From the NCBI GenBank assembly GCA_009885805.1, contig VFJZ01000046.1:1-57818 (forward strand): a stretch of 57,818 bases of DNA, given 5' to 3'. Source of the stretch: Actinomycetota bacterium. Its GTDB lineage: Bacteria > Actinomycetota > Thermoleophilia > Gaiellales > F1-60-MAGs149. The first letter of the stretch is position 1. Each line of letters begins with the position of its first letter. The notes beneath the pieces were generated by a model that worked only from the letters and a program-made list of their open reading frames with translations, was not told the origin of the DNA and made no database searches. Shown piece by piece: positions 50,256 through 51,622 of the stretch. The translations under genes were made by a program, and so were the position numbers.

Positions 50256-50347
50256 GGCGAATCCGCACGTTCGGGTCGGCGAATCCGCACGTTACATCGG
50301 GCGGATCCGCAAGTTACGCCCGGCGGATCCGCATGATGACCTACACT
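50256..50347 (+). promoter_or_regulatory. Four 22-bp direct repeats with palindromic core, plus -10 box
   Basis: Units start at 50256, 50278, 50300 and 50322, exactly 22 bp apart. Each begins GGCG(A/G)ATCCGCA; units 3 and 4 contain the 10-bp perfect palindrome GCGGATCCGC, and units 1-3 continue to GTT. The last unit runs into TACACT (50342-50347), 6 nt before GTG 50354. Two helical turns per unit puts all sites on one face of the DNA, the pattern of a cooperatively bound regulator. Confidence 0.65.
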
Positions 50348-50353
50348 TCGCTG

Positions 50354-51622
50354 GTGGGATCACGTCGTGACCTCGTTGGCCGGTACATCGAACCGCGGCT
50401 TCGCGCCGCCCTCCAGCGCTCACCCGTCGTCGCCCTGCAAGGTGCCCGTCAGGTCGGGAAGAGCACGCTCGCGCGCGCCATCGTCGGCGATCTCGGCGGC
50501 GAGTTCGTATCCCTCGACGACCCGCTCCTACGAGCCGCTGCCGAGCGTGATCCGCAGGCGTTCATCGATCGCCCGGGCCTTCTCTGCATCGACGAGATCC
50601 AGCGTGTCCCAGACCTCTTGCTCGCCATCAAGCTCGCCGTTGACGAGCGGCGCGTCGCCGGCCGGTTTCTCGTCACCGGGTCCGCGGACCTGCGTCGGCT
50701 GCGGTCGGTCAGGGATAGCCTCGCCGGCCGCATTGAGCGGATCGTCCTGCACGGCTTCACCCAGGGCGAACTCGAGCGAACGCGCGAGGCCTTCCTCGAC
50801 GCCGCGCTCGCCGGCCGGCTCGGCGTGGACTGGACTTCGTCGTTATCCCGCGCCTCGTACCTCGCACGCGCGGGCCGCGGCGGGTTCCCCGAGGCCGTCG
50901 CGCGGGATGATGAGGATCGCGTGGCGTGGCTCGAGTCGTACGTTGCCGACATCGTCGAGCGCGACCTCCCCGAGATCGCGGGCCGCCATCGCCTCGGCGT
51001 CATGCCGCGTCTGGTCTCGATCCTCGCGGCCGGCAATGCGCGCGAGCGCAACATCGCCTCGCTCGCCCGTACGCTCGACATCGGCGAGCGCGCCCTGCCT
51101 GCCTACCTCGAACTGCTGGAGCTGCTGTACCTGGTGGTGCGGATTCCGGCGTGGTCGGCGGACCTCGGTCGCCGGCTCATCGCCCGTCCGAAGCTGTTCC
51201 TCGCCGACCCGGGACTCGCTGCGGCCGTCGCGGGCCTCACGCCCGAACGGCTCTCGCCACGCTCCGACCCGCGCCCGGCCGGTGCCCTCCTGGAGGGGTT
51301 CGTCGTGACCGAACTCGTCCGGCAGTCGTCGTACGCCGAGGCCCGGGTCACGCTGCACCACTTCCGCGATCGCGGTGGCGACGAGGTGGACGTGGTCGCC
51401 GAGCACCGAGACGGGCGCGTCGTCGCGATCGAGGTCAAGGCCGGGGCGGCGCCGGCCGACGCCGTGCGCTCGCTTGTCCGCCTCCGTGATCGGCTCGGCG
51501 AACGATTCGTCCTCGGTGTCGTGTTGTCGACCGACCAGCATCCGGCGAGGCTCGGCGATCGTCTGCTTGCGTTGCCGATCGAAGCGCTCTGGCGTGACAC
51601 GAGCCGGCGGGCGGCGGCGTGA
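50354..51622 (+). CDS. AAA+ ATPase with DUF4143 domain
   Basis: 422 residues from GTG 50354. AAA_14-type ATPase: Walker A LQGARQVGKSTLARAIVG, Walker B GLLCIDEIQRVPDLL, sensor-like FLVTGSADLRRL; then DUF4143: FPEAVARDDEDRVAWLESYV, RPKLFLADPGLAAAVAG and the nuclease-like end GDEVDVVAEHRDGRVVAIEV (D...ExK of the PD-(D/E)XK fold). Biological role unknown; some relatives occur in accessory regions. The ATG at 50333 would place the fourth operator repeat in the gene, so the leaderless GTG after TACACT is preferred. Overlaps the next gene by 4 nt. Confidence 0.85.
   Translation: MGSRRDLVGRYIEPRLRAALQRSPVVALQGARQVGKSTLARAIVGDLGGEFVSLDDPLLRAAAERDPQAFIDRPGLLCIDEIQRVPDLLLAIKLAVDERRVAGRFLVTGSADLRRLRSVRDSLAGRIERIVLHGFTQGELERTREAFLDAALAGRLGVDWTSSLSRASYLARAGRGGFPEAVARDDEDRVAWLESYVADIVERDLPEIAGRHRLGVMPRLVSILAAGNARERNIASLARTLDIGERALPAYLELLELLYLVVRIPAWSADLGRRLIARPKLFLADPGLAAAVAGLTPERLSPRSDPRPAGALLEGFVVTELVRQSSYAEARVTLHHFRDRGGDEVDVVAEHRDGRVVAIEVKAGAAPADAVRSLVRLRDRLGERFVLGVVLSTDQHPARLGDRLLALPIEALWRDTSRRAAA

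Follow-up and report, generated by a model that had tools for sequence, protein, structure and literature searches.

What reads the four tandem repeats that precede a DUF4143 ATPase gene in an Actinomycetota bacterium of the order Gaiellales (assembly GCA_009885805.1, contig VFJZ01000046.1), and what follows when they are read? The repeats lie within a stretch of 57,818 nucleotides, here called the window, and end at a putative promoter. We propose, with a probability of roughly 0.75, that the array serves the DUF4143 gene that follows it as an operator and is bound by the gene's own product, which would act as an autorepressor. Direct recognition of such arrays by their DUF4143 proteins is well supported, in a clade related to that of the window gene, by covariation between protein residues and repeat bases, and autorepression, suggested by the overlap of arrays with promoters, is the likeliest outcome of array occupancy. 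The elements of the locus are as follows.

50256..50277, + strand: array unit 1, GGCGAATCCGCACGTTCGGGTC (repeat start 50256, 22-bp spacing)
50278..50299, + strand: array unit 2, GGCGAATCCGCACGTTACATCG (repeat start 50278)
50300..50321, + strand: array unit 3, GGCGGATCCGCAAGTTACGCCC (repeat start 50300)
50322..50343, + strand: array unit 4, GGCGGATCCGCATGATGACCTA (conserved core up to ~50337)
50342-50347, + strand: putative -10 box TACACT, read from the sequence, following unit 4
50354..51622, + strand: AAA_14-DUF4143 ATPase gene, PADLOC PDC-S01 (Pfam and PADLOC models; probable leaderless GTG start)

The initial annotation of this DNA described four units with an exact 22-bp spacing, and this description holds: the period-22 autocorrelation score of the array is 34, whereas none of 5000 shuffles of local composition (periods 10-60) scored above 21, and the second-best 22/23-bp signal in the 57.8-kb window scores 11. 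The leaderless-type promoter at the end of the array was also recovered, with TACACT followed 7 bases later by a GTG at 50354 that is a plausible, and probably the actual, leaderless start of the DUF4143 gene; the ATG at 50333 picked by the open reading frame (ORF) finder falls within unit 4. A search of the 3.56-Mb genome for the 16-mer of the array, allowing at most one mismatch, returned only the array itself and two isolated, imperfect single copies (C34 and C44), and the reversed control pattern had 0 matches. Hence, the motif is not scattered across the genome. The proposed palindromic core fared less well. While all 10 bp of GCGGATCCGC, found in units 3 and 4, form a perfect palindrome, GCGAATCCGC of units 1 and 2 is palindromic at 8/10 positions, and the conserved 16-mer is non-palindromic. 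Because the family's arrays score about the same for palindromy as column-shuffled ones (0.419 versus 0.415), we dropped palindromy as a family-wide property, and the palindromy of the window units is incidental. Units of one subgroup (L262, L027, L081, and L113) are more palindrome-like (e.g., GGTTGAATTTCAACC), again with a period of 22 bp, and perhaps reflect a different binding mode.

Arrays of this kind had been thought unusual for the gene family, but one large clade carries them as a rule. Across a phylogeny of 272 DUF4143 proteins, drawn from many phyla, a 22/23-bp array is present at the gene start in 147 of the 173 members of one clade, in 12 of the 22 members of an intermediate clade, and in none of the 71 members of a second clade. 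The hosts of array-bearing genes include Actinomycetota, Proteobacteria, Acidobacteriota, Verrucomicrobiota, Chloroflexota, Spirochaetota, and Bacteroidota, among others. Significant repeats were found in 84 of 182 DUF4143 upstream regions, with a period of 22, 23, or 44-46 in 77 of the 84; among upstream regions of other ORFs from comparable contigs, 16 of 163 had significant repeats, and only one of these was at period 23. In 72 aligned arrays, the units are spaced by 22 (94 gaps) or 23 (125 gaps) bp with almost no exceptions. The start codon frequently falls 7-16 bp beyond the start of the last unit, and a -10-like hexamer lies inside the last unit significantly more often than inside other units (22/72 versus 17/223, P = 3.7e-6). 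Given the conservation in 147/173 clade members, the period control, and the shuffles, an origin of the array by chance or by recent tandem duplication is refuted for practical purposes.

Who, then, binds the units? The initial annotation named two candidates, the ATPase itself and a dedicated regulator encoded elsewhere. Regulators of defense genes that bind direct repeats do exist (RptR, PMC12255303). However, the units differ among paralogs within one genome. Five of the seven DUF4143 genes of this genome (L008-L011 and L013) have 22/23-bp direct repeats at their starts, the sequences of the five are all different, and each array most closely matches those of relatives from other genomes. 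More generally, the more alike two proteins are, the more alike their repeats (Mantel r = 0.252; highest permuted value 0.089), with median repeat similarity rising from 2.0 at <30% protein identity to 3.1 at 50-60% and 5.0 at >80%. At matched protein identity, sharing a genome does not make two arrays significantly more similar (P = 0.084). Since arrays resemble those of other genomes and show no significant excess likeness within a genome, a common genome-level regulator appears unlikely. The array closest to that of the window, at locus L109, belongs to a protein of 43-44% identity and has units that contain GACGGATCCGCA. The array type in front of DUF4143 genes is conserved among relatives, and the unit sequence is gene-specific. 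Moreover, across 50 array loci we found no conserved partner, and no neighboring gene common to the loci except additional DUF4143 genes; a toxin-antitoxin type of autoregulated operon was ruled out on this ground. As unit bases also follow residues of the DUF4143 protein itself (see below), a separate dedicated regulator is disfavored and, in our view, highly improbable.

Additional DUF4143 genes can be numerous. One locus (L274, G345:C1 840500-856600) holds three within ~13 kb (841884, 847277, and 854456) with near-equal profile scores, which suggests recent tandem copies. The number of DUF4143 matches per genome reaches 22 in a Comamonadaceae genome (G334) and 17 in Pseudomonadales (G337); many of the DUF4143 genes examined from these genomes are in array-less clades.

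The protein side of the proposed recognition was examined in the product of the window gene, which is, as annotated initially, a DUF4143 ATPase. It matches the Pfam domains AAA_14 (E = 1.2e-22) and DUF4143 (E = 3.6e-36) above their curated cut-offs (80.8 bits versus 27, and 124.7 bits versus 28.1, respectively), and the PADLOC PDC-S01 model PDLC04790 over residues 6-415 (E = 5.6e-145, 481 bits). By these profile matches, it is a member of PDC-S01, a candidate phage-defense family. The AlphaFold model of the protein (predicted local distance difference test score 92.8, predicted template modeling score 0.92) and a 41-sequence alignment, in which invariance was judged for the Walker and PD-(D/E)XK residues, place the following features.

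50441..50467, + strand: Walker A, residues 30-38 (G30, G35, K36, and T38 invariant)
50588..50596, + strand: Walker B IDE, residues 79-81 (D80 and E81 invariant)
51053..51202, + strand: winged helix-turn-helix (wHTH), residues 234-283, with recognition helix 248-257 (AlphaFold model)
51083..51091, + strand: residues G244-E245-R246, the strongest protein covariation with unit bases 3-5
51293..51439, + strand: PD-(D/E)XK-type motif E314, D346, E360, and K362 (invariant)
51371..51373, + strand: residue R340, in a loop of the C-terminal domain between two strands, covarying with unit base 11

The covariation was read in the CAATTGG-type clade, with residues numbered as in the window protein. Alignment by motif refinement of 128 arrays with at least 3 units recovered the core.TTNCAATTGGNCG in 48 of them, compared to 0/128 in the column-shuffled control. 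Sliding-window covariation was ambiguous (the wHTH, Walker A, and residues 331-350 all scored), and per-residue and residue-base tests were used, the latter with a gap filter. When 5239 residue-base pairs were ranked, residue 246 with base 4, 244 with base 3, 340 with base 11, and 246 with base 3 took the first four places. In the 48 training arrays, base 4 is C in 18/18 cases with K246 and 1/1 with R246 (other residues, 0/29), base 11 is G in 41/41 cases with K or R at 340 (other residues, 1/7), and base 5 is C in 27/28 cases with H or R at 245 (other residues, 4/20). We fixed these three rules before new loci were fetched and masked bases 4, 5, and 11 when aligning the new arrays. In 25 new alignable arrays, C4 accompanies K/R246 in 3/3 cases versus 1/22 for other residues, G11 accompanies K/R340 in 24/24 versus 0/1, and C5 accompanies H/R245 in 20/21 versus 1/4. 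Four virus-borne DUF4143 genes agree with the rules in 12/12 calls (three positions each), and three of the four have a residue other than K/R at 340 together with T or C at base 11. For the new loci overall, the counts are 6/6 versus 1/23 for K/R246 and C4, and 25/25 versus 0/4 for K/R340 and G11. Lys, Arg, or His opposite G (G11, or the G pairing with C4 and C5) would make a sensible, chemically plausible contact. In the AlphaFold model, residues 244-246 are at the entry of the wHTH recognition helix, and residue 340 is in the strand loop of the C-terminal domain. In an alignment by eye, the window unit GGCGAATCCGCACG fits the code as xGGCGAATCCGCAC (R246/C4, E245/G5, and R340/G11), which is consistent with a base code in the window's own clade. 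The suggestion that the ATPase itself may be the regulator is well supported by the residue-base covariation of the CAATTGG-type clade.

Several observations weigh against our reading. The pooled Fisher P values for rules 246, 340, and 245 (1.5e-5, 4.2e-5, and 2.9e-4, respectively) overstate significance, because the covariation has just 2-7 independent switches on the tree; an independent-pairs test on the tree had too few pairs to reach significance. The window unit obeys the code only in the hand-made alignment, and other actinobacterial arrays appear to have C at the base-4 place without K/R246. The array is undetected in 26/173 members of the array clade. The last unit of the window stands before the -10 box instead of containing it, and occupancy of the array could activate the promoter instead of repressing it.

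Under the proposed autorepression, one DUF4143 molecule would bind each asymmetric unit of ~15 bp, with the start of the recognition helix (residues 244-246) reading unit bases 3-5 and the residue-340 loop of the PD-(D/E)XK-like domain reading unit base 11. Direct repeats two helical turns apart would line the molecules up head-to-tail along a single face of the helix, an arrangement that would resemble the common packing of AAA+ subunits. Where a promoter has a 17-bp spacer, its -35 and -10 hexamers are 23 bp apart and one unit can cover the -35 and the next unit the -10, and because the array lies over or adjoins this region, full occupancy should block RNA polymerase. We hypothesize that such a cooperative, self-limiting autorepressor would keep a potentially harmful ATPase-nuclease scarce, and that ATP state, DNA damage, or phage attack may release it.

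Alternatively, the protein may bind its own array chiefly as a working platform (a sensor, loading, or nuclease-control site) or as an autoactivation site, with promoter control being secondary. The invariant Walker and PD-(D/E)XK residues listed above are in line with this possibility, and so is the fold. While no relative of known structure was found for the window protein by sequence search, the best structural matches are the archaeal ATPases Sso1545 (2FNA, E = 2.5e-6) and PABY2304 (2QEN, E = 3.0e-6), both of which differ from the window protein (template modeling score ~0.4, identity 15-18%), followed by RuvB, Apaf-1, Avs, and Orc/Cdc6 proteins. Viral contigs add to it. Pairs of CAATTRGNCG at 22/23-bp spacing in IMG/VR lie outside ORFs of at least 100 amino acids (aa) in 10/18 loci, one of these being a DUF4143 gene's own array, versus 1/18 at control spacings of 24-27; some of the 23-bp-spaced matches were discounted for being situated inside conserved ORFs. 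No DUF4143 gene was found in the sequence examined around the viral two-unit loci, and these copies may be decoys, borrowed operators, or sites of another reader. On the other hand, the position of the array at the 5′ end of the gene, beside or over the promoter, is the usual one for an operator, and we regard a primarily platform-like role as unlikely.

The two-unit copies outside long ORFs are at loci L380, L381, L383, L433, L434, L435, L441, L443, L444, and L445. A further pair, that of L380 (5376-5408), is just 5′ of a probable terminase small-subunit gene in a terminase-like operon, with an opposite-strand ORF of only 132 aa. The TTCCGAATTGGACG pair had no match in viral contigs.

Direct repeats of ~22 bp also resemble plasmid iterons, and relatives from the array clade occur in 182 plasmid records (95 predicted to be conjugative), frequently on Rhizobium and Agrobacterium plasmids. 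The arrays could therefore be replication or recombination repeats that travel with the gene. However, chromosomal and plasmid copies are alike, the array is solely 5′ of the gene in the regions examined with the promoter embedded in the last unit, and the loci have no common mobile neighbor. This origin seems even less probable than a dedicated regulator. A plasmid iteron system was rejected for the window locus, where the domain search found no Rep domain and metabolic genes flank the DUF4143 gene on both sides. The gene is placed among these metabolic genes, outside any defense island, and its stop codon shares bases with the GTG of the following gene (51619-51622), which encodes an alanine racemase N / D-serine dehydratase-like protein; translational coupling of the two is possible.

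Winged-helix proteins on direct repeats of about two helical turns, often autoregulated, are familiar from iteron Rep proteins (R6K pi and RepE), Orc1/Cdc6, and DnaA box arrays, and Orc1/Cdc6 proteins are also AAA+. Unlike these systems, the DUF4143 gene is not tied to a replication origin, and its fold combination differs from that of iteron Rep and Orc1/Cdc6 proteins in including a PD-(D/E)XK domain. Direct-repeat autoregulation as such is already known, both from iterons and from RptR, the repressor of phage-defense islands (PMC12255303). RptR shares with the DUF4143 arrays the defense context and the direct repeats, but it is a small alpha-helical homodimer that binds 9-bp repeats with a 6-bp palindrome and is separate from the effector (PMC12255303), whereas the DUF4143 units are asymmetric and 22/23 bp long, and their reader would be the effector-like ATPase itself. 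New here are an array shared across a clade of a major uncharacterized family, unit sequences that differ from paralog to paralog, and a code that links unit to protein: in the open-access literature, a search that left subscription journals and preprints outside, we found no earlier description of promoter arrays or self-recognition for DUF4143, COG1373, or PDC-S01, the family to which the window protein belongs.

According to a 2026 study, PDC-S01 is the fourth most common defense across prokaryotes, and most PDC families await experimental validation (PMC12988326). More tentatively, we conjecture that PDC-S01 proteins of the array clade may be self-addressed DNA-binding ATPase-nucleases, in which each paralog has its own promoter address in a code that coevolves with the protein and insulates paralogs from each other; phage copies would then be decoys or borrowed operators, and the array would be part of the defense logic beyond serving as a brake. 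For this uncharacterized family, which is counted among the commonest candidate defense genes in prokaryotes, the array offers a first biochemical handle. Together with the code, it points to the DNA that is bound, the residues that read it, and a likely means of silencing, and it makes the regulation of the family, the insulation of paralogs in genomes with up to 22 DUF4143 genes, and possible phage countermeasures testable now.
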